The notes under the pieces were generated by a model, which was not told where the DNA came from, did not search any database, and saw only the letters and a program-made list of their open reading frames with translations. Source: Saccharopolyspora galaxeae (GTDB lineage: Bacteria; Actinomycetota; Actinomycetes; Mycobacteriales; Pseudonocardiaceae). Taken from it: DNA of 64,000 nucleotides. Shown here in pieces: positions 33,974-54,612 of the stretch (the first letter of the stretch is position 1; every line of letters begins with the position of its first letter). The stretch is taken from contig NZ_JADDUE010000009.1 of assembly GCF_016526145.1 (NCBI RefSeq), forward strand, positions 1 through 64,000. Reading direction: 5' to 3'. The translations under genes and the position numbers were made by a program.

Positions 33974-34100
33974 ACCGCTGATTCGAGGCGGGCCGAAGAT
34001 GTGTCCGAGATCTCACACCGGAGCCGTATTGCTCGTGCAACGAGGCCGTAACAAGGTGTAGTTAGCTCGCCTAAGTAAAAGCTTGCGGAGAGGTGGCCTC

Positions 34101-35930
34101 ATGTGCGGCATCACGGGTTGGGTGTCCTACCAGCGGGACATGACAGCTCAGGACCGGATTCTGCGAGAGATGACCGAGACCATGTCCTGCCGCGGACCGG
34201 ATGATCAGGGCGTCTGGACCGCGCACCACGCCGCGCTGGGACACCGGCGGCTCGCGGTGATCGACCTGCCTGGCGGCACCCAGCCGATGCAGGTCGACAC
34301 TCCGGACGGGCCGGTCGCGATGGTCTACTCCGGAGAGGCTTACAACTACACCGAACTGCGCGCCGAGCTGCGCCAGCGCGGGCACCGGTTCGACACCGAC
34401 TCGGACACCGAAGTAGTGCTGCGCGGCTACGTCGAGTGGGGCGAAGCGGTGGCCGACCGGCTCAACGGGATGTACGCGTTCGCGATCTGGGACTCCCGGA
34501 CCGAAAAGCTCGTGATGATCCGCGACCGGATGGGCATCAAGCCGTTCTACTACTACGAGACCGACGACGGCGTGCTGTTCGGCTCCGAGCCGAAGGCGAT
34601 CCTGGCCAACCCGCTGGCCGAGGCCGTGGTGGGCTCGGACGGGATGCGGGAGATCTTCGCATCGGCCAAGACTCCCGGATTCGCCATCTGGGAAGGGATG
34701 CGCGAGCTGCAGCCCGGGCACCTGGCCGTGGTCGACCGCAACGGGCTGCGCGAGCGGTGCTACTGGCGGCTGGAGGTCTCCGAGCACACCGACGACGAGC
34801 AGGCCACCGCCGCGCACGTGCGCGAGCTGCTCGACGACATCATCGGCAGGCAGCTGGTCGCCGACGTGCCGCGCTGCGCGTTGCTCTCCGGCGGGCTGGA
34901 CTCCTCGGCGATGACCGCGCTGGCCGCCCAGCAGCTCGGTGCGAAGGGCGAGACCGTGCGCAGCTTCGCGGTCGACTTCCCCGAGCAGGCCGAGAACTTC
35001 CAGGCCATCGAGGTGGCCCCCACGCAGGACACGCCGTACGTGCACGCGGTCGCCGAACACGTCGCCAGCGACCACTCCGACATCATGCTCGACGGGGCGT
35101 CGCTGGCCGACCCGGCCGTGCGGCGGGCAGCGGTGGCCTCCCGGGATTTCCCCGTCGGCATGGGAGATCGGGACAACTCGCTGTACCTGCTGTTCCGGGC
35201 GATCCGGGAGCAGTCGACGGTGGCGCTGTCCGGCGAGTCGGCCGACGAGATCTTCGGCGGCTACCCCTGGTTCCACAACGACCGGCAGCGCTACGCCGAC
35301 ACGTTCCCGTGGCTGGTCGATTCGCCGCTGTTCTCGATGGAGGTGCTCGACGAGCAGACCCGGCGCAAACTCGACCTGCCCGCCTACATCGCCGATCACT
35401 ACCGGTCCGCGCTGCGCGAGGCCCCGCTCAAGGACTCCGAAACCGGACTGGAAAAGCGCATGCGGCAGGTCTGCTACCTGCACCTGACCCGCATGGTGCA
35501 GACGCTGCTCGACCGCAAGGACCGGCTGAGCATGGCCGTCGGGCTGGAAGTGCGGGTGCCGTTCTGCGACCACCGCCTCGTGCAGTACGTGTTCAACACG
35601 CCGTGGTCGTTGAAGACCTTCGACGGGCGGGAGAAGAGCATCCTGCGGGCGGCCACCCGCGACGTGCTGCCCGCCTCGGTCGCCGACCGCAAGAAGAGCG
35701 GCTACCCCGGCAGCTTCGACCCGAACTACCTCGCGGCGATCCAGTCGCAGGCCCGCGAGCTGTTCTCGGCCAACCACGAAGTCCTGGAGTTCTTCGACCG
35801 CGACTCGCTCAAGACCGCCACCGAGACCACCGGTGATGCGGTCACGACCGCGCAGCGCAACGGAATCGAACGAGCCCTGGACATCGCGGCCTGGTACGAC
35901 CTGCGCAAGCCGACGCTGAAGCTGGACTGA
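34101..35930 (+). CDS. asnB: Asparagine synthase (glutamine-hydrolysing)
   Basis: A 609-residue class-II glutamine amidotransferase. Cys2 (MCGITGWVSY) is the nucleophile that hydrolyses glutamine, and RGPDDQGVW and a YSGEAYNYTELR segment follow. The synthetase domain has the PPi loop LLSGGLDSSAMTALAA and an SGESADEIFGGYPWF motif. Length and both active sites are complete, so it makes asparagine or amidates a related substrate, rather than being a lasso cyclase. GGAGAGG precedes the ATG. It is convergent with the peptide methyltransferase gene across palindrome D. Confidence 0.93.
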   Translation: MCGITGWVSYQRDMTAQDRILREMTETMSCRGPDDQGVWTAHHAALGHRRLAVIDLPGGTQPMQVDTPDGPVAMVYSGEAYNYTELRAELRQRGHRFDTDSDTEVVLRGYVEWGEAVADRLNGMYAFAIWDSRTEKLVMIRDRMGIKPFYYYETDDGVLFGSEPKAILANPLAEAVVGSDGMREIFASAKTPGFAIWEGMRELQPGHLAVVDRNGLRERCYWRLEVSEHTDDEQATAAHVRELLDDIIGRQLVADVPRCALLSGGLDSSAMTALAAQQLGAKGETVRSFAVDFPEQAENFQAIEVAPTQDTPYVHAVAEHVASDHSDIMLDGASLADPAVRRAAVASRDFPVGMGDRDNSLYLLFRAIREQSTVALSGESADEIFGGYPWFHNDRQRYADTFPWLVDSPLFSMEVLDEQTRRKLDLPAYIADHYRSALREAPLKDSETGLEKRMRQVCYLHLTRMVQTLLDRKDRLSMAVGLEVRVPFCDHRLVQYVFNTPWSLKTFDGREKSILRAATRDVLPASVADRKKSGYPGSFDPNYLAAIQSQARELFSANHEVLEFFDRDSLKTATETTGDAVTTAQRNGIERALDIAAWYDLRKPTLKLD

Positions 35931-35949: not shown

Positions 35950-35996
35950 GTGATGGGCCCCTTCGCCTCGCAAGATCGAGCGAAGGGGCCCATCAC
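35950..35996. repeat. Intergenic palindrome family, copy D
   Basis: GTGATGGGCCCCTTCGC and GCGAAGGGGCCCATCAC form a perfect 17-bp stem with a loop that itself has CTCG/CGAG. It stands between convergent asnB (ends 35930) and the methyltransferase (ends 36002), only 6 bases from the latter, so it probably terminates both. Confidence 0.85.
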
Positions 35997-36001
35997 TCGC
36001 A

Positions 36002-37117
36002 CTACGACCCGGGTCGGAGCGGGAGGCGCCAGTGCCGCCCTGGCAGGCGCACCGAGTGCGCGCCGTCCGCGGCGATCGTCAGCTCGTACTGGTCCGGTGC
36101 GGGTTTTCCGGCGTCCTGCCACCACGAATACGCCGTGTCGGCCTCGTCCCAGAGCCGCCGCGGACCCAGCTGGTGCACCGTCCACGGATGTTCTCCGCGC
36201 ACCATGGTGACCCGCGCCCAGGAATGCGACCGGATGTCGTGCAGCTCGATCAGCCGGTGAGCGTCGTCGGTGTCCTCCACGGTGAGGTAGCAGTCCGGCA
36301 CCCGGAGGCCGATGGTGAACGAAGCCGCGGAGAAATCCACCATCTCGAACAACTCCAGCGGTTCGCGTGCGGTGCTGCTGCGTTCGGCATCGTCGAGCTC
36401 GTCCGCCGCCGGGTCGAGGAATCCGCGGCGCTGCCCGCGCATCCGCATGAAAGCGAGGCGCTGCCCGAAACTCCCGGAAGCCGAACCGTCCGCGTGCACT
36501 TCCAGCGCGGTCAGCGCGTCTTCGCCGTAGTCGGTGCCCCACGGCGCAAGAATCCGCCCGCCCGGGCGGGATTGCTCGATCCACGTGCGCGCGATCGCGC
36601 GGACCGAGGCGGTTGCGAGCACGCGGTCGTACGGGGCACCGGGCGGGTATCCCGCCGCCCCATCGGCCGTGATCACCAGCGGTGCTTGGCCGGAGGCCGC
36701 CAGCGCGCGCCGGGCGTTGTCCGCGACGACCGGGTCGATCTCGACCGAGACCACCTGCCCGGTTCCGCCGACCCGTTCGCAGAGCAAAGCCGCGTTCCAG
36801 CCGGTTCCGGTGCCGATTTCCAGCACTCGGTGCCCTGGACGCACGTCCAGTGCGTCGAGCATGTCCGCGACCAGCGACGGCTGGCTGCACGAACTGCTCG
36901 GGACGCGGGTGCGGTCGTGCGGCTGCCCGTCGTCGGGCTGCCCGTCGTCCAGTTGCGTGGTGATCGGCTGGTCGGCGGCCACCATCCCGTGCCACCGCGC
37001 GGGGTCGGAATCCCTGCTGATCCTGGTGAACTCGTCGGTCTCCGGCTCGTAGTCCCAGATCACCGCGGGGATGAAGGCGGCACGCGGCACCGCGAGCCGC
37101 TCGCGCCAATCCGGCAC
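36002..37117 (-). CDS. PIMT-like peptide O-methyltransferase, RiPP-associated
   Basis: A 371-residue SAM methyltransferase of the protein-isoaspartate methyltransferase type found in RiPP clusters. Residues about 1-60 are a family-specific N-terminal part (DWRERLAVPRAAFIPAVIWD). VPSSSCSQPSLVADMLDAL (72-90) precedes SAM motif I, RVLEIGTGTGWNAALL (97-112). An extension of about 150 residues follows the Rossmann fold, longer than housekeeping PIMT. Residues 58-66 contain a short DDGQP duplication. GTG at 37117 is 6 bases after the stop of a 39-residue peptide gene. I infer that it methylates an Asp of that peptide, giving an aspartimide or isoaspartate. Palindrome D follows. Confidence 0.86.
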   Translation of the reverse strand: MPDWRERLAVPRAAFIPAVIWDYEPETDEFTRISRDSDPARWHGMVAADQPITTQLDDGQPDDGQPHDRTRVPSSSCSQPSLVADMLDALDVRPGHRVLEIGTGTGWNAALLCERVGGTGQVVSVEIDPVVADNARRALAASGQAPLVITADGAAGYPPGAPYDRVLATASVRAIARTWIEQSRPGGRILAPWGTDYGEDALTALEVHADGSASGSFGQRLAFMRMRGQRRGFLDPAADELDDAERSSTAREPLELFEMVDFSAASFTIGLRVPDCYLTVEDTDDAHRLIELHDIRSHSWARVTMVRGEHPWTVHQLGPRRLWDEADTAYSWWQDAGKPAPDQYELTIAADGAHSVRLPGRHWRLPLRPGS

Positions 37118-37123
37118 CGCTGC

Positions 37124-37243
37124 CTACTTCTTCTCGCCGCCGGGGCGTTCGTGCTTGTTGCCGTCGTCGTCGCTTTGCCAGGTCTCCCACTTGTCCGGTT
37201 GCGGTTTTCCCTGCCCGTCCCGGTCGGAGTCTCGTTTGCCCAT
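37124..37243 (-). CDS. 39-residue Asp-rich peptide, candidate RiPP precursor
   Basis: A peptide of 39 residues with AGGAGG 7 bases before its ATG, the best ribosome binding site nearby. It contains seven Asp, two Trp and six to eight Lys/Arg, with Asp-Gly at residues 9-10 and 27-28. The C-terminal part, SDDDGNKHERPGGEKK, holds the most attractive modification site, because Asp-Gly is the sequence most prone to aspartimide formation by PIMT-type enzymes. It has no export signal, no Cys and no Ser/Thr-rich core, so lanthipeptide chemistry is unlikely. It forms a two-gene operon with the methyltransferase that follows after 6 bases. A structural role for the peptide cannot be excluded. Confidence 0.8.
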   Translation of the reverse strand: MGKRDSDRDGQGKPQPDKWETWQSDDDGNKHERPGGEKK

Positions 37244-37450
37244 TCGTCGCCTCCTGGTTTTCGGTCCTTTCCTGGTTGTATCGGATCGAAACCGGGTAGG
37301 TTTATCCGCCGATCGGCGGTCTTTTCCGCAGGAAATTTGCTAGCGGAAAATGGATCGCGCAATTTCCGGAAAGTTGATTCGGCCGCCCGCGGTGGCGCGA
37401 GCGCGGCGAGGGGCTGCGCCCCGCGCACCCGAGTGCGCGACGATGGGCGC

Positions 37451-37666
37451 ATGAACGACCGCGACGAGCAAGACGGACCCGGCTTCGAAGAAGGACCGAA
37501 CACGGTGTGCTTCGGCTGCGCCGGGTTCCGCAAGCTGAGCGAGCCGCGGCTCTACCTGATCCAGGCGACCACCGACACCCAGACCGGCATGACGATGGGC
37601 GAGTGGCGGACCTGCCCGCACTGCAACGGCGCGGGCAAGCTGCCCGGTGTCCGGCCGCCGGTGTGA
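37451..37666 (+). CDS. Small zinc-ribbon-like protein (two CxxC)
   Basis: A 71-residue acidic protein with NTVCFGCAGFRKLSE and later WRTCPHCNGAGKLPG, a DnaJ-type CxxCxGxG element. Two CxxC motifs about 32 residues apart could bind one zinc. No Shine-Dalgarno is obvious. It lies divergent from the peptide gene and 56 bases before the DUF5996 gene. Function unknown. Confidence 0.7.
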   Translation: MNDRDEQDGPGFEEGPNTVCFGCAGFRKLSEPRLYLIQATTDTQTGMTMGEWRTCPHCNGAGKLPGVRPPV

Positions 37667-38665: not shown

Positions 38666-39667
38666 TCAGGCCCGCTGCAACGCCTGCGTGATCATCGGCG
38701 TCAACCGCTGCAGCGCGAACGGGATGCTGGTGACCGTCGCCGACCCGAGCGCCATCGTCACGTCGTAGTCGTCCAGCAGCAGCAGCGAACCGCGCTTGGC
38801 CGCTGGCAGGTTGTTCAGCAGCGGATCGGCCCGCACCGTCGCCACGTCGGACGGTTTGGCGGTGGTCACGATGACCACGTCCGCGTCCAGCAGCGACACC
38901 TGCTCCTTGCTGACCTTCACGTTGAACTTGCCGCCGTCGTCCAGGTCGTCGATCGAGGGGGCCAGCTTCAGGCCGAGCTGCTCGAGCAGCGCGGTCCGCG
39001 CGTCCTGCTTGGTGTAGGCGGCGTAGGTGCCCGCGGAGTCGGTGCGCACCGTCACGTGCGTGCGGCCCTCGAACTGCGGGTTGGCCTGCCGGGTGCGGTC
39101 GATGCGGGTTTGGGTGTCCGCGATCAGCCTGTCCGCCTCGGCCTTCTTGCCCAGCGCGCGGCCCATCGTCTCGGCCTGCACCCGCCAGTTCACGCCGTAG
39201 TCGATCGAGCCGGGCGGCTGCGCCACGACCGGGGCGAACGCGGAGAGCCGGTTGTACTGGTCCTGCGTGAGCGCGCTCTGCAGCCCGACGATCACCTCCG
39301 GCGCCAGCGCGATGACCTGCTCCACGTCGACCTCGCTGCCCAGCAGCTTCGGGTGCTGCCCGCGCAGCATCGGCTCCACCCACGGGCCGACGCCGGACTG
39401 CCACGGTCCCCACTGGGTCAGCCCGGCGGGCACCACGCCCAGCGGCAGCGCCGCGTCGTGGTCGGTGATGCCCAGCGTGACGATGTTGCCGGGCGCGGCG
39501 GGAACCTCCGCGGTGCCGAACTTGTTGGGGATCCGCGCCGCCGGTGCCGCTCGGCCGGCGGGGGAACCACCGGCGCAGGCGGACAGTCCGGCGGCGGCGA
39601 GGCCGGTGGCACCGGCGAGGAACGCACGGCGGCCGAACCGGGCGTGCGGGGTTCGGGCAGAGGTCAT
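38666..39667 (-). CDS. Iron-siderophore ABC transporter substrate-binding lipoprotein
   Basis: A 333-residue periplasmic-binding-type lipoprotein. The export signal has twin arginines and a lipobox (FGRRAFLAGATGLAAAGLSAC), so it may use the Tat pathway. The mature part resembles FecB/FepB-type proteins: IVTLGITDHDAALPLG, VDVEQVIALAPEVIVGLQ and a long central helix. It captures an Fe(III)-siderophore outside the membrane. The permease and ATPase are not encoded next to it. An IdeR/DtxR-like box lies 25 bases upstream, so iron repression is likely. GGAGGGAAG precedes the ATG. Confidence 0.93.
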   Translation of the reverse strand: MTSARTPHARFGRRAFLAGATGLAAAGLSACAGGSPAGRAAPAARIPNKFGTAEVPAAPGNIVTLGITDHDAALPLGVVPAGLTQWGPWQSGVGPWVEPMLRGQHPKLLGSEVDVEQVIALAPEVIVGLQSALTQDQYNRLSAFAPVVAQPPGSIDYGVNWRVQAETMGRALGKKAEADRLIADTQTRIDRTRQANPQFEGRTHVTVRTDSAGTYAAYTKQDARTALLEQLGLKLAPSIDDLDDGGKFNVKVSKEQVSLLDADVVIVTTAKPSDVATVRADPLLNNLPAAKRGSLLLLDDYDVTMALGSATVTSIPFALQRLTPMITQALQRA

Positions 39668-39692
39668 CGCGCTTCCCTCCAAGTCGACAAGG

Positions 39693-39706
39693 AAGGCTAA
39701 CCTAAC
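39693..39706 (-). promoter_or_regulatory. IdeR/DtxR-like iron box (half site)
   Basis: GTTAGGTTAGCCTT on the minus strand matches the left and central part of the actinobacterial iron box TTAGGTTAGSCTAACCTAA. It lies 25 bases before the siderophore-binding-protein start, the expected position for iron-dependent repression. The right half is poorly matched. Confidence 0.8.
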
Positions 39707-39758
39707 AAATGAGCGGATCTCTGCGCTGTGACTTGTGCGTCGTTTTCGCGCCGGGCGC

Positions 39759-40724
39759 TCAGGAATCCGGGGATTCCGGGGCTTCCGGAGAACCGGGGAG
39801 TTCGAGCGCGCGGCGGGCCCGCGCCGTGGCACGGGACGGCTGAACGCTGTCCAACTCCGCATTGATCGTGGCGCCGAGCAGCACCGCGAACGCGGTGACG
39901 TAGAGCCACAGCAGCACGCCCATCGGAGCCGCCAGCGCGCCGTAGACCGGGGAGTGCTCGATGGTCACGTCCAGGTAGATCCGCAGCCCGAAACTGCCCC
40001 CCAGCCACACCAGCAACGCCAGCGCGGCCCCCGGCACGTGCTCCAGCCAAGGCGTGCGCAGCGGGACGGACAGCACGTACAGCGTGCTCAGCGACGCGAT
40101 CGAACCGACCACGATCAGCGGCCAGTACAGCGCGTACACCACGACCGCGGCCTGCGGGAACCACCCGGCGATCACCGACGGCCCCACCGCCAGCAGCGGC
40201 AGCAGCACGATCCCGCCGAACAGCGCGGCCGTGTACAGCCCCACCGACATCAGCCGCTGCCGCACCAGATTGCGCTGCCCGCCGAGCCCGTAGACCACCG
40301 AGATCGTGTCGATGTAGACGTTCAGCGCCGCCGAACCGGACCACAGCGCCAGCACGAACCCGAGCGAGATGATCCCGGCCCGCCCGGTGCTGAGCACCTC
40401 GTCCAGCACCGGCTGCATCATCTGGTCGATGGCCTGCTGGGACAGCACCGCGGACGCGCCGTGCACCAGCGAGTTCCGCACCGCCGCGACGGTGCCACCA
40501 CCGAGCACGCCCGCCAGGTAGCCGAGCGTGCCGACCAGCCCCAGCAGCACCGGCGGCAGCGAGATGAGGGTGAAGAACGCGGCCTCCCCGGCCAGTCCGG
40601 TGAGCCGGTGCCGGGAGCTGGCGGCCACCGTCTTCTTGGTGAGCCGCCACAGCCCCCGCAGGTGCCGGTTGCGCGGCTGACCGTGCCGGATGCGGTCGAG
40701 GATCGTCGGCTGCTGTCCCAACAC
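39759..40724 (-). CDS. YihY/BrkB-family membrane protein
   Basis: A 321-residue polytopic membrane protein of the YihY/virulence-factor-BrkB family with about six helices. LTGLAGEAAFFTLISLPPVL at the N-terminus and SGSAALNVYIDTISVVYG in the middle are typical. Function is poorly defined, possibly transport or envelope integrity. The C-terminal tail is Pro/Glu/Ser-rich. GTG at 40724 follows AAGGGG. It is divergent from the EI24 gene. Confidence 0.92.
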   Translation of the reverse strand: MLGQQPTILDRIRHGQPRNRHLRGLWRLTKKTVAASSRHRLTGLAGEAAFFTLISLPPVLLGLVGTLGYLAGVLGGGTVAAVRNSLVHGASAVLSQQAIDQMMQPVLDEVLSTGRAGIISLGFVLALWSGSAALNVYIDTISVVYGLGGQRNLVRQRLMSVGLYTAALFGGIVLLPLLAVGPSVIAGWFPQAAVVVYALYWPLIVVGSIASLSTLYVLSVPLRTPWLEHVPGAALALLVWLGGSFGLRIYLDVTIEHSPVYGALAAPMGVLLWLYVTAFAVLLGATINAELDSVQPSRATARARRALELPGSPEAPESPDS

Positions 40725-41884: not shown

Positions 41885-43207
41885 ATGACCGCTGACGCTG
41901 AACCCACCGCACCGGACGACTCCTACCTGCGCGCGGTCGCCGAGGCGACCGAACGCGCGGTGGCCTCGGCCGAGCCGATCCGCTCCGAGTTCGACGGCGC
42001 GCCCGAGCCGTTGCGCGCCCGCGCGGAGAGCCGCATCGGCGAACTGGCCGAGCCGCTGCTGGAGCTCAGCCACGACCTGCACGCCCACCCCGAGGAGGGC
42101 TTCGGCGAGCACCGCGCGGTGGCGGGCGTGGCGGAGCTGTTGCGCGCACAGGGCTTCGACGTGCAGGTCGGAGCCGGCGGCCTGGAAACCGCGCTGGTCG
42201 CGCGCGGCGGCGGGGACGGACCGCACGTGGCGGTGCTGGCCGAGTACGACGCGCTGCCCGGCATCGGGCACGCCTGCGGGCACAACATCATCTGCACCTC
42301 GGCGACCGGCGGTTTCCTCGGTGCGGCGGCCGCGCTGGAGCAGACCAGGGGGCGGCTGAGCCTGTTCGGCACGCCCGCCGAGGAAGGCGGCGGCGGCAAG
42401 GAGATCCTCGCCCGCGCGGGCCTGTTCGACGACGTCGACGCGGTGCTGATGCTGCACCCGTTCTCGCACGACATCGCCGCGCACCCGTTCCTCGGCCGCA
42501 GGCAGCTGGACGTGACCTTCCACGGCATCGCCGCGCACGCCTCCGCACAGCCGTTCATGGGCCGCAACGCGCTGGACGCGGTCGTGGCGACTTACCAAGG
42601 CGTGGCCGCGCTGCGCCAGCACATGCCGTCCGGAGACCGGGTGCACGGGATCATCACCGACGGCGGGGCGCGCCCGAACGTGGTGCCGGAGCGGGCCGCC
42701 GCCCAGTTCTACGTGCGCTCGGCCGACGCCGGTTCGCTGCGGGACGTGGCGGGGCGCATCGAAGCGATCGCGCGCGGTGCCGCGGAGATGACCGGCTGCG
42801 GAGTGGAACTGCTCTGGGACCGGCAGGTGCCGTACCTGCCGATCCGGCACAACCAGGCGCTGTCCGCGCGGTGGGCGCAGCACCAGGGGCGGCGCGGCCG
42901 CAACGCGCTGCCGCGCGGGGTGGTGCCGGAGTACCTGACCGGCTCCACCGACCTGGGCAACCTGAGCTTCCGGATGCCCGCGATGCATCCGATGATCGGT
43001 CTCGAAGACCCGGGACTTTCGCTGCACACCGCCCGGTTCGCCACTGCCGCGGGCTCGGCGGCGGGGGATCGGGCGGTCCTCGACGGCGCGGTCGGGCTGG
43101 CGCTGACCGCGCTGGACTACCTCGCGGACGACCGCCTGCGCAGCGCCGTGCACGCGGAGTTCGAGTCCGCGGGCGGCTCCGTGGACGTCCCGGCCTTCTT
43201 CGACTGA
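41885..43207 (+). CDS. M20-family amidohydrolase / peptidase
   Basis: A 440-residue metal-dependent amidohydrolase of the M20D group. SHDLHAHPEEGFGEHRAV, VLAEYDALPGIGHACGHNII and GTPAEEGGGGKEIL contain the metal ligands and the catalytic Glu. It probably removes acyl or amino groups from amides, as in indole-acetamide or p-aminobenzoyl-glutamate hydrolases. TAGGGT lies 6-7 bases before the ATG with no Shine-Dalgarno, a clear leaderless arrangement. Confidence 0.93.
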   Translation: MTADAEPTAPDDSYLRAVAEATERAVASAEPIRSEFDGAPEPLRARAESRIGELAEPLLELSHDLHAHPEEGFGEHRAVAGVAELLRAQGFDVQVGAGGLETALVARGGGDGPHVAVLAEYDALPGIGHACGHNIICTSATGGFLGAAAALEQTRGRLSLFGTPAEEGGGGKEILARAGLFDDVDAVLMLHPFSHDIAAHPFLGRRQLDVTFHGIAAHASAQPFMGRNALDAVVATYQGVAALRQHMPSGDRVHGIITDGGARPNVVPERAAAQFYVRSADAGSLRDVAGRIEAIARGAAEMTGCGVELLWDRQVPYLPIRHNQALSARWAQHQGRRGRNALPRGVVPEYLTGSTDLGNLSFRMPAMHPMIGLEDPGLSLHTARFATAAGSAAGDRAVLDGAVGLALTALDYLADDRLRSAVHAEFESAGGSVDVPAFFD

Positions 43208-43338
43208 GGCCGCAGCGCGCCGGCCCGGAGTGATGGACTCCGTCGCCCAGCTCGGCCCCGGAACGGTGCGTGTGGTGGCCGCGCGGAACCTCCGCGGGCG
43301 CTGCGTAGGATCGGCGCGGCCCCGAACCCCGACCAGGT

Positions 43339-44055
43339 GTGTCTACTGTGGACGAATTAGTACAGCGCTGGACCGCGCAACTGCTGGACTCCGGCAGCGC
43401 GCTGACCCTCCTGCTCGGTCTGGTGGCGCTCGGCCTGATCAGCAACCACGGCACGTGGCGGCTGCTGCGCAACGTGGTCACCATCGCCCATGAAGGCGGG
43501 CACGCCGTGGTCGCGCTGCTCAGCGGCCGAACCCTCAACGGCATCCGGCTGCACTCCGACACCTCTGGGCTGACGCTGTCCACCGGCAGGCCCAGCGGCC
43601 CCGGCATGGTGTTCACCCTGTTCGCCGGCTACCCGGCGGTGTCGCTGCTCGGCCTGGGCGGTGCGGCCATGGTCGGGTTCGACCTGGCCCGCCAAGCGCT
43701 GTGGGTGGCGATCGGGCTGCTGGTGATCATGCTGCTGGCCATCCGCAACGCCTACGGGGTGCTGTCGGTGGTGCTCACCGGCGGCGCGCTGTTCGCGGTG
43801 TCCTGGTTCGCCGCGCCCGCATGGCAGGCGGTGTGCTGCGTGCTGGTGAGCTGGTTCCTGCTGCTCGGCGGACTGCGCCCGATCGCTGAGCTGCGCGGCA
43901 AGCGCAATCGCGGCAGGGCGCCCAGCTCGGACGCCGACCAGCTCGCCCGGCTGACCCGCGTCCCCGCCGGGGCGTGGCTCGGCGTTTGGTTCCTGATCGG
44001 CATCGCCGCGTTGGTGATCGGCGGCCGCTGGCTGTTGCTGATCCCGCAGCTCTGA
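43339..44055 (+). CDS. M50B-like membrane metalloprotease
   Basis: A 238-residue polytopic membrane protein with the zinc motif HEGGH in VVTIAHEGGHAVVALLSG, of the M50B-like group. A second acidic ligand is not clear. Such proteins may process membrane proteins, but many lack proven activity. GTG at 43339 has a weak AGG; GTG at 43348 is an alternative. A TAGGAT -10 lies near 43306. Confidence 0.88.
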   Translation: MSTVDELVQRWTAQLLDSGSALTLLLGLVALGLISNHGTWRLLRNVVTIAHEGGHAVVALLSGRTLNGIRLHSDTSGLTLSTGRPSGPGMVFTLFAGYPAVSLLGLGGAAMVGFDLARQALWVAIGLLVIMLLAIRNAYGVLSVVLTGGALFAVSWFAAPAWQAVCCVLVSWFLLLGGLRPIAELRGKRNRGRAPSSDADQLARLTRVPAGAWLGVWFLIGIAALVIGGRWLLLIPQL

Positions 44056-51260: not shown

Positions 51261-53342
51261 TCAACCGGCGAGTTCGTGCGGGACTCCGAGCTCGTCGTAG
51301 AGCTGCGCGGCCAGCCCGCGCTGCTCGCGGGCCTGCACGGGACGCCCGGTGGTGTCCCAGATGTCGGCGAGCCGCTCGCGGTCCAGCGCCTCGCCGTAGC
51401 TGTACTCCACGTCCCGGTGCAGCTGCAGCGCCAGCTCCAAGTGCTCGACGGCTTCCCCGGTGCGGCCGGTGGCGCCGAGCACCAGGCCGATCTCGCTCAG
51501 GCAGCTGCCCTCGAGGCGGCGGTCGCCGTGCGAGCGGCGGATCTCGATGGTCCGTTGCAGGTGCCGGATCGCCTCGTCGTACTGGTGCAGGCGGTGCTCG
51601 GCCTTGGCCAGCGCGCTCAACGTGGTCGCCTCGCCCCACTCGTCACCCAGCTCGACGTGCATGCTCAGCGAGCGTTCCAGCGCCTCGTTCGCCTCCTCGT
51701 CGCGCCCCAGCGCGTAGTACGCGCCGCCGAGGTCGCGCAACGCCCACGCCTGCGCCCACTCCGGGCCGGACCGCTGCCACAGCGGCACCGCGCGCTGCAG
51801 TTCCGCCAGCGCCACCTGGTGCTGCTGCAGCGTGCTGCGCGGGATGGAGTCACTGGTCAGCAGCCACGCCTCGGCCAGCTCATCGCCGAGCGCGGCGGCC
51901 GAGGCCAGCCCGATGCGATGCGATTCCAGCCAGTAGGCCACCGGCCTGCGGGCCAGCATGAAGGCGAACATCGCCACCGGCAGCTGCCAGGCGAAAACGT
52001 GCTCGCCGCGGTCCGCGGCCTGCCGGACCGCGGCCAGCAGGTTCGCGCGTTCGGCGTCGTAGAAGTGCAAAGCCGTCGGCCGATCGGTGAATTCCGGCAC
52101 CGATCCCGGGGAATCCGGCAGCTGCATCGGGAGGCGGGTGAAGCTCGGCTCGGCCTTCCAGGACGCGCCGATCGTCGCGTGCAGGTACCAGGACAGCAGG
52201 CGGCGGACGGCCGCGTCGCGTTCCTCGGCGCTCTCGTCGTACTGCGCGCATTCCGCGGCGTAGAGGCCGACGAGGTCGTGGAAGCGGTAGCGCTGCGGCT
52301 GGTGCTCGTCGAGCAGGTGAGCACCGGTCAGGGATTCCAGCAGCCTGCGGGACTTGGGTCGGGAGATGTTGGCCAGCGCGGCTGCGGCGTCCAACCCGAT
52401 GTCGGCGCCCTCGGCGAGACCGAGCAGCCGGAACAGCCGTGCCGCCTCCGGCGCGAGCGAACGGTACGACCAGGAGAAAACCGCGCGCACAGTGGTGAAT
52501 TCGTCCTCGTCGATGGCCAGCGCGTCGAGCCGTTCTCGTTCGTCGGCCAGTTCCGCGACGAGATCGGCGATCCGCAGCTGTGCGCCGGCCACCAGCCGTT
52601 CGGCGGCGATGCGCAGCGCCAGCGGCAGGTATCCGCAGTAGTGGGCGAGCTCGGCGGTCGCGTCCGGCTCGGCGTCGACCCGGTCGGCTCCGGCGGTCCT
52701 GCGCAGCAGCTCGACCGCGCGGTCCGGGGGCAGCACGTCCAGCGACATCCGGCCGGCTCCTTCCCTGGTCGTCAGGCTCGTCAAGTGGCTGCGGCTGGTG
52801 ACCAGCACCCGGCAGTCCGGAGAACCGGGCAGCAACGGGCGGATCTGCTCGGCGGCGGCAGCGTTGTCGAGCACGATCAGCATACGGCGACCGTGCAGCA
52901 TGGTCCGGTACATCGTGGCCTTCGCGGCCGCGTCGACGGGTAATCGTTCGCTCGGCACGCCCAGCGCGCGCAGCACCTCGTCGAGCGCCTCGTCCGCGTC
53001 GCGCCTGCGGTTGACGTGGTAGCCGCGCAAGTCCACGTAGAGGTCGCCGTCGGGGAAGCTGTCCCGCACCCGGTGCGCCCAGAACGCGGCCAGCGAGGTC
53101 TTGCCGACGCCTCCGGAACCGACGATCAACCAGGTCGGTGCGGCGGAGTCGGACGGTTCGGCCAGCCAGGAGTCCAGCGCGGTCAGGCTCGCCTCGCGGT
53201 CGGTGAAGTGCGTGACGCGCTGCGGAAGTTGCCGCGGCACCGGGACTTCCGGCTGGTGCAGGTGCACACCGCCGTAGATGTGCTGCGCCTGCACCACGTT
53301 GCGCGCATTCCCGGAGAAGACGTTCGAGGCCCCGTCGCCCAT
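51261..53342 (-). CDS. NB-ARC/TPR STAND-type protein
   Basis: A 693-residue signal-transducing ATPase. Residues 1-35 include GNARNVVQAQHIYGGVHLHQ, a tag common in actinobacterial STAND proteins. NB-ARC follows with Walker A in VGSGGVGKTSLAAF (74-87) and Walker B in RRMLIVLDNA; then a winged-helix region and about eight TPR repeats to the C-terminus. It lacks an obvious effector domain or transcription-factor domain. It is probably a regulatory switch. ATG at 53342 follows GGGGG. It does not share an operon with meaB, whose end lies 283 bases upstream. Confidence 0.9.
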   Translation of the reverse strand: MGDGASNVFSGNARNVVQAQHIYGGVHLHQPEVPVPRQLPQRVTHFTDREASLTALDSWLAEPSDSAAPTWLIVGSGGVGKTSLAAFWAHRVRDSFPDGDLYVDLRGYHVNRRRDADEALDEVLRALGVPSERLPVDAAAKATMYRTMLHGRRMLIVLDNAAAAEQIRPLLPGSPDCRVLVTSRSHLTSLTTREGAGRMSLDVLPPDRAVELLRRTAGADRVDAEPDATAELAHYCGYLPLALRIAAERLVAGAQLRIADLVAELADERERLDALAIDEDEFTTVRAVFSWSYRSLAPEAARLFRLLGLAEGADIGLDAAAALANISRPKSRRLLESLTGAHLLDEHQPQRYRFHDLVGLYAAECAQYDESAEERDAAVRRLLSWYLHATIGASWKAEPSFTRLPMQLPDSPGSVPEFTDRPTALHFYDAERANLLAAVRQAADRGEHVFAWQLPVAMFAFMLARRPVAYWLESHRIGLASAAALGDELAEAWLLTSDSIPRSTLQQHQVALAELQRAVPLWQRSGPEWAQAWALRDLGGAYYALGRDEEANEALERSLSMHVELGDEWGEATTLSALAKAEHRLHQYDEAIRHLQRTIEIRRSHGDRRLEGSCLSEIGLVLGATGRTGEAVEHLELALQLHRDVEYSYGEALDRERLADIWDTTGRPVQAREQRGLAAQLYDELGVPHELAG

Positions 53343-53625
53343 GCCGACCCCCAACCGAAAGGCAGCGAACACCTCGCATGATCGCCCTCCGCCGCGGACC
53401 GCCGGCGCGGAACTTCCCGGAATTTCCGGAAAAACGACCGTACGGGCCAATGCCGCCACCCGAACGTCCGCACCCGGCCGGACGAATCCCGCCGGGGCCG
53501 GAGATCTTGCGCGAGGGACGCAGTGTGCAGCGGGAGGCTGCAACCGGAACAGCGAACGCCGGGACGGATTCAACTCCGCGCAGTGGTGGGTTTCGCCGCG
53601 CGCGGGCGGGCGGCCGGGGGAATCG

Positions 53626-54612
53626 TCATTCGCGGTCGAAGGCTTGCAGGAGTTGCTGGGCCGCCAGGCTCGCGGTGAGATCGCCCCGGCTGACGCGGGT
53701 TTCGACATCTTCGACGATGGCTCGGACGCCGGGATGGGCGGTGAGCTCGGCCATCAGCTGGTCGCGCACCAGCGACCACGTCCACTCGACCTGCTGGCGG
53801 CTGCGCTTCTGCGCCAGCTCGCCGGTTTCGGCGAGCGTGGCGCGGTGCTGCTCGACCTGCTCCCACAGCGAATCCAGCCCCGCCGCGGTCAGTCCGCTGC
53901 AGGTCAGCACCGGTGGTTTCCACGAGGCGCTGACCGGGGTGAGCAGCCGCAGCGCGCTGCGCAGCTCGCGCGCCGCCTTCCGCGCGTCCGTCTCATGTGG
54001 ACCGTCGGCCTTGTTCACCGCGACCAGGTCGGCGAGTTCCAGCACGCCCTTCTTGATGCCCTGCAACTGGTCGCCGGTGCGGGCCAGGGTCAGCAGCAGG
54101 AAGCAGTCCACCATCCCGGCCACGGTCACCTCGGATTGCCCGACGCCGACCGTTTCCACCAGCACCACGTCGAAGCCCGCGGCTTCCATCAGCACGATCG
54201 TCTCGCGGGTGGCGCGCGCGACCCCGCCGAGCGTTCCGGCCGAGGGGGAGGGGCGCACGAACGCGGCCGGATCCGCCGCCAGCGTCCCCATCCGGGTCTT
54301 GTCGCCGAGGATGCTGCCGCCGCTGCGGGTGGACGACGGGTCGACCGCGAGCACCGCGACCCGGTGCCCGGCCGCGGTCAGCGACGTCCCCAGCGATTCG
54401 ATGAACGTCGACTTGCCGACGCCGGGCACCCCGGTGATCCCCACCCGGTGCGCCCCGCCGCTGTGCGGCAGCAGCTGCACCAGCAATTCCTGCGCTTTGG
54501 CCCGGTGCGCCGGTTTGGTCGACTCGACCAGCGTGATCGCCTGCGCCAGTTTCGTGCGGGAACCTTCCAGCACGCCCTTGGCGTAATCCTCGACGTTGAT
54601 CTCGCGCGGCAT
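53626..54612 (-). CDS. meaB: Methylmalonyl-CoA mutase-associated GTPase MeaB
   Basis: A 328-residue G3E-type GTPase that gates cofactor delivery and protects methylmalonyl-CoA mutase. Walker A GITGVPGVGKSTFIESL, the VLAVDPSSTRSGGSILGDKT segment and VNKAD (base specificity) are present. AAGGACCCGTG precedes the ATG. It follows mutB after 49 bases on the same strand and is the third gene of the mutase operon. Confidence 0.96.
   Translation of the reverse strand: MPREINVEDYAKGVLEGSRTKLAQAITLVESTKPAHRAKAQELLVQLLPHSGGAHRVGITGVPGVGKSTFIESLGTSLTAAGHRVAVLAVDPSSTRSGGSILGDKTRMGTLAADPAAFVRPSPSAGTLGGVARATRETIVLMEAAGFDVVLVETVGVGQSEVTVAGMVDCFLLLTLARTGDQLQGIKKGVLELADLVAVNKADGPHETDARKAARELRSALRLLTPVSASWKPPVLTCSGLTAAGLDSLWEQVEQHRATLAETGELAQKRSRQQVEWTWSLVRDQLMAELTAHPGVRAIVEDVETRVSRGDLTASLAAQQLLQAFDRE

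Follow-up and report, generated by a model that had tools for sequence, protein, structure and literature searches.

Type I pamtides have been described as the products of two-gene clusters in which a Gly/Pro/Asp-rich precursor of approximately 45 aa is accompanied by a peptide Asp methyltransferase (PAMT) that acts as the primary enzyme; the published precursor means are 17.3% Gly, 16.8% Pro and 10.2% Asp, and most precursors have an acidic N end and a basic C end (PMC10787088). In a 2026 review these peptides are named imiditides, with 1414 of type I and 125 of type II cited (PMC13001092). According to the sections of the two papers considered here, the type I enzymes SpaM and NmaM act on linear peptides (PMC10787088, section 2.5; PMC13001092, section 10). 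A GXGXG SAM-binding motif is described (PMC13001092), as is a WXXXGXP motif for PIMTs associated with RiPPs (section 11), and the role of aspartimide-bearing RiPPs is presented as the main open problem (section 12).

The window analyzed here is a stretch of 64,000 nucleotides from Saccharopolyspora galaxeae, whose genome is assembled into 34 contigs totaling 6.4 Mb. On its reverse strand, a precursor peptide gene of 39 aa with an ATG start (37124..37243 (-); MGKRDSDRDGQGKPQPDKWETWQSDDDGNKHERPGGEKK) is preceded by the ribosome-binding site AGGAGG (37250..37255 (-)), six bases 5' of the ATG, and its stop codon is separated by 6 nt from the GTG start of a PIMT-like methyltransferase of 371 aa (36002..37117 (-); PF01135, 108.6 bits). 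This arrangement of an Asp-rich peptide and an enzyme, together with the two Asp-Gly pairs that the earlier note had claimed, was verified by coordinates, the pairs being located at positions 9-10 and 27-28 of the peptide. The peptide contains 6 Gly, 7 Asp, 6 Lys and 3 Pro and no Cys, so that CXXCXGXG zinc motifs are absent; the charge of its first 12 residues is 0 and that of its last 12 is +2, compared with mostly -1 to -5 for the last 12 in the aligned peptides of clade relatives. In the enzyme, GTGTG at residues 102-106 (36800..36814 (-)) corresponds to the GXGXG motif, in columns that are invariant or nearly so in the alignment, and WQDAGKP at residues 333-339 (36101..36121 (-)) aligns as the WXXXGXP motif.

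A search with the enzyme in 297 genomes of the family provided 30 loci for comparison, among them the window, another copy from the same species and a frameshifted copy (L023), and a related small frame lies directly upstream at all 30. A search of 297 genomes with a peptide profile (A2, which includes the window's own peptide) identified 40 places in 33 genomes, 39 of which adjoin an enzyme match when compared by position and with extra stretches, some of these matches being broken. The enzyme is fragmented at the profile places in G198 and at one place in G076; a decayed copy in the latter genome (L219, ~1590-2742) has the enzyme in pieces and a peptide that reads GGQ where others have DGQ. 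At the fortieth place (L218, ~1658-1750, in G070), similarity is lost after about 30 residues and there is no enzyme match in the stretch. We conclude that the pair is real, that it is conserved, and that its two members decay jointly. Two further copies are irregular in other ways: G097 harbors two peptide-enzyme copies some 5.9 kb apart, the second of which (L220, 2416-3185) has an enzyme match to residues 1-218 only, without the C-terminal domain, and upstream of position 1501 in L023 (G001) the peptide is apparently frameshifted between its RDGQG and DDDGNEHE halves, with the enzyme frame open.

In a survey of named genomes, 80 loci were retained from among 564 relatives, and a candidate frame, selected by length (28-60 aa), ribosome-binding site and hydrophilic make-up, is present at 78 of them, with Asp-Gly in 76. 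No candidate was obtained at L048, where the peptide is truncated, or at L081; the picks at L103 and L106 lack Asp-Gly, and a few others (L055, L061) may have been taken from the wrong frame. When a fixed and stricter rule is applied, 57 of the 80 loci pass, as against none of 231 controls (0/80 antisense, 0/75 upstream, 0/76 downstream). Since the samples were ordered nearest relatives first, all these fractions describe this neighborhood of the family and not PAMTs at large. The conserved small frame that the earlier note had proposed to look for beside homologous methyltransferases is present, at a spacing that stays within -1 to 28 nt in most of the near clade and rises to approximately 120 nt in other subtypes. 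The picks measure 31-56 aa, and type I precursors about 45 aa, which contradicts the description of the window precursor as unusually short. Acidity was considered as a mark of the clade and rejected, since a net negative charge is shared by most of the picks from other subtypes.

The nearest named-genome loci belong to Actinopolyspora, Tamaricihabitans, Actinoalloteichus, Saccharopolyspora and other Pseudonocardiales. In a tree of 87 enzymes, from which L034 and L057 were excluded because of a stop in the stretch, the window groups, with support of 100/98, in a set of 20 rows whose labels are all of the DRDGQG type. Enzyme clades track peptide type, with 13 label changes compared with a shuffled mean of 49.6, the labels having been assigned from rough patterns and those of L045, L050, L053 and L088 being arguable. 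We consider it likely that the pair is a single unit encoding a type I pamtide/imiditide, in which the peptide is the substrate and the PAMT its dedicated modifier, converting Asp9 to aspartimide or isoaspartate.

The choice of Asp9 follows from the pattern of conservation within the peptide. In an alignment of 27 relatives, which left out the frameshifted L023 and the truncated L048, residue 9 (codon 37217..37219 (-), within DRDGQG) is Asp in 26 and Asn in one, residue 10 is Gly in all 27, and His31 of the NKHE box (residues 29-32, 37148..37159 (-)) is kept in 26. The row of L043 in this alignment is misframed, and as its true peptide has Asp-Gly at 9-10 and no KH box, the counts of 26, 27 and 26 stand. 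The second Asp-Gly (SDDDGNKHERPGG), which adjoins the KH box, is present in 14 of the 27, as counted by eye, and a KH/RH box recurs later in the peptides of other subtypes (NKHG, GKHRK, GRHEK), being absent from the LPGEPW...PDGGPGVPNPP picks of the named-genome survey. On these grounds Asp9 is probably the modified residue, the region of the second Asp-Gly is more likely a recognition sequence than a site, and the NKHE box is a possible recognition element. The single Asn at residue 9 belongs to Longimycelium tulufanense (L053, frame upstream of 5001), where EGNGQG represents a natural variant of the predicted site.

The reverse assignment within the same class, with the enzyme modifying Asp25-27 before Gly28 and DRDGQG serving as the recognition element, would make use of SDDDG as an Asp-Gly site and could appeal to the KDDGN stretch that is kept in many near relatives, as well as to the late position of Asp-Gly in Streptomyces subtypes. 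It is, however, unlikely given that the second Asp-Gly is retained about half as often as the first (which is Asn-Gly in the one exception) and that in some relatives (L045, L046, L047) the segment lacks any Asp; the emphasis that the earlier note had placed on the second pair accordingly shifts to the first. Replacement of the last five residues of SpaA is reported to abolish modification (PMC13001092, section 10), and we infer that these residues may constitute a box of the KH/RH kind, SpaA being known here by its description in a text that does not give its sequence.

The constraint on the peptide itself was assessed by pairwise comparison of 17 related peptides over codons 2-32, in which third codon positions account for 1541 differences, first positions for 508 and second positions for 437, and 1033 synonymous codon differences are found versus 842 non-synonymous ones, the pairs not being independent. 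The predominance of third-position differences among these near peptides suggests that their conservation is more than chance. Within the genus, however, the window differs over codons 2-38 by 11 non-synonymous and 2 synonymous codons from L004 and by 8 and 6, respectively, from L017; the changes in both comparisons are not mainly silent, which counts against the case for coding constraint. An alternative is that translation of the small frame does no more than couple or regulate that of the methyltransferase gene downstream, whose product would act on other proteins. The spacing of -1 to 28 nt in most of the near clade would be compatible with such a role, but the amino-acid conservation over residues 2-32 in the near clade, the wider spacing in other subtypes and the correspondence between enzyme clades and peptide type make it very unlikely.

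The best NCBIfam model for the enzyme is that of the graspetide methyltransferases (TIGR04188), at 319 bits and below the cutoff of 380, and the FxLD methyltransferase model (TIGR04364) also matches below its cutoff. An AlphaFold model (20 sequences) has a mean pLDDT of 87.6, and its best fold match in the PDB is the PIMT of Thermotoga maritima (1dl5), with 362 columns, a TM score of 0.51, 20% identity and an rmsd of 8.3, at which the domains are not superposed as one body. Because the alignment spans 362 columns, the C-terminal domain is included; the enzyme thus shares with RiPP-modifying PIMTs an additional domain at the C terminus, an extension of more than 100 aa, and also their WXXXGXP motif. 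That the enzyme is instead a protein-repair PIMT standing beside an unrelated small hydrophilic protein would agree with its PF01135 match, but is highly improbable in view of the score with the repair model TIGR00080 (88.5 bits, cutoff 159), the extra domain and the fact that the pair is kept together.

No family besides the enzyme occurs in more than 3 of 21 neighborhoods (20 related loci and the window), as seen with a simple gene caller that can miss genes, having detected the enzyme in only 15 of the 21. The absence of a recurrent third gene suggests a self-sufficient pair. The statement that no protease or transporter is encoded nearby holds for the adjacent genes only, as a periplasmic binding protein (38666-39862) and M20 and M50B peptidases (41885-44055) lie further along the window. 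The methyltransferase and asparagine synthase genes converge on a 17-bp perfect inverted repeat (35950-35966 / 35980-35996, loop of 13 nt), which is probably a terminator common to both; the strong terminator of the earlier note is borne out as to the repeat, but there is no T tract and a terminator scan with a loop limit of 8 did not list it. The asparagine synthase (34083-35930) was considered as a partner and rejected, with 480 bits for TIGR01536 (cutoff 267) and 207 for the lasso cyclase model (cutoff 525). Similarly rejected as a second substrate was a divergent frame of 71 aa (37451-37666 (+)), whose matches in G101, G120 and G079 lie far from the pair; this frame has a CxxC...CxxCxGxG pattern that recalls type II precursors and is matched in 12 of 41 relatives. 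Membership of the pair in a graspetide, lanthipeptide or lasso cluster with its primary enzyme nearby, to which TIGR04188 as best model and the adjacent asparagine synthase homologue, from the superfamily of lasso cyclases, could point, is hardly credible when the former stays below cutoff, the best match of the latter is remote from the region of the pair in four of the six genus genomes, and a scan of 24 other frames from 21878 to 53708 gave no ATP-grasp, LanB or radical-SAM family. An 815-aa protein with NB-ARC and TPR domains is encoded at 51261-53708 (-).

Within the genus, the pair is present in five of six genomes. In all five the enzyme lies beyond F0 (a 2-oxoacid dehydrogenase acyltransferase) and before F1, and where F3 (DUF5996) was called it is found between F0 and F1 along with the enzyme; in G079 it was uncalled, but a search located an F3 match with one stop. 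The sixth genome, G137, has F0, F3 and F1 and lacks the enzyme. This pattern is better explained by a stable site in the chromosome, with the pair lost or absent once, than by a mobile unit. Elsewhere in the source genome (L171:9798-11000; G000:C21, ~525.8-527.0 kb), a second PAMT-like enzyme (285 bits) is preceded by an Asp-rich frame of 32 aa (VGEEKNDHSVEDDKQTGKTSGDVDPKKYEDDA), and similar frames at L183, L184 and L180 bring the count to 4 of 11 related loci examined; the two may form a second, different pamtide pair.

For the type I unit that we favor, the chemistry at the window pair can be extrapolated from the characterized relatives. The enzyme would bind the peptide in its linear form, with the Trp-containing middle and the NKHE box as possible contacts, and use SAM to methylate the Asp9 side chain; methanol would then be displaced by the backbone NH of Gly10 to give an aspartimide, which could hydrolyze to a mixture with isoaspartate. 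A more tentative proposal, which we put forward as possible rather than probable, is that the Pseudonocardiales clade and its Actinomadura and Nocardiopsis cousins represent a reversed pamtide subtype, in which the site, DRDGQG with Asp9, comes first, at the N terminus, and the recognition segment, consisting of QPDKW..W....NKHE and the tail, lies C-terminal to it and stays uncleaved, the whole peptide working inside the cell; subtypes would then differ in the order of two modules, Asp-Gly and the KH/RH box. The clade constitutes a compact test set, with one predicted site, the Asn variant of L053, the decayed, Asp-less pair of L219, a genus in which a single genome, G137, is without the pair, and the KH box as a candidate recognition element.

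Comparison with known systems places the pair, on the available sequences, among the type I pamtides/imiditides, a class already in print (PMC10787088, PMC13001092), whose features of a two-gene cluster, a precursor in the range of about 45 aa that is rich in Gly and Asp, if with few Pro, a conserved Asp-Gly and a C-terminal extension of more than 100 aa with WXXXGXP are all found here. The class proposed in the earlier note is thus supported, by the conserved pair, the C-terminal domain with its motif and the lack of any other recurring gene, and its views on site and length are not. The window pair may already be in the published type I list; Saccharopolyspora, Pseudonocardia, Actinopolyspora and Amycolatopsis have no occurrences in the main text of PMC10787088, and no paper on this clade is among the literature matches listed, for which subscription papers and preprints were mostly outside the scope. 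The likeness is greatest to SpaA-SpaM of Streptomyces sparsogenes and NmaA-NmaM of Nonomuraea maritima: a two-gene unit with no other RiPP enzyme, a small Gly/Asp/Lys-rich precursor without Cys that has a conserved Asp beside Gly, and a PAMT with the C-terminal domain and motif. Compared by description and not by sequence, the window clade differs from these type I peptides in its own pattern, DRDGQG..QPDKW..W....NKHE, in an Asp-Gly near the N terminus, as in the Actinomadura and Nocardiopsis relatives, and in the low Pro content of the window peptide and the mostly acidic tails of the clade, which, the +2 of the window peptide apart, are at odds with the basic C ends published for most type I precursors. 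Type II pamtides or cysimiditides (FcaA-FcaM) are likewise two-gene units with a PAMT, but the window peptide lacks their CXXCXGXG and any Cys. The graspetide and FxLD methyltransferases (TIGR04188, TIGR04364) belong to the same family, but both models stay below cutoff and no ATP-grasp or lanthipeptide enzyme was found near the pair. T. maritima PIMT, for which we know of no peptide partner, resembles the enzyme in fold, C-terminal domain included, and differs from it at 20% identity.
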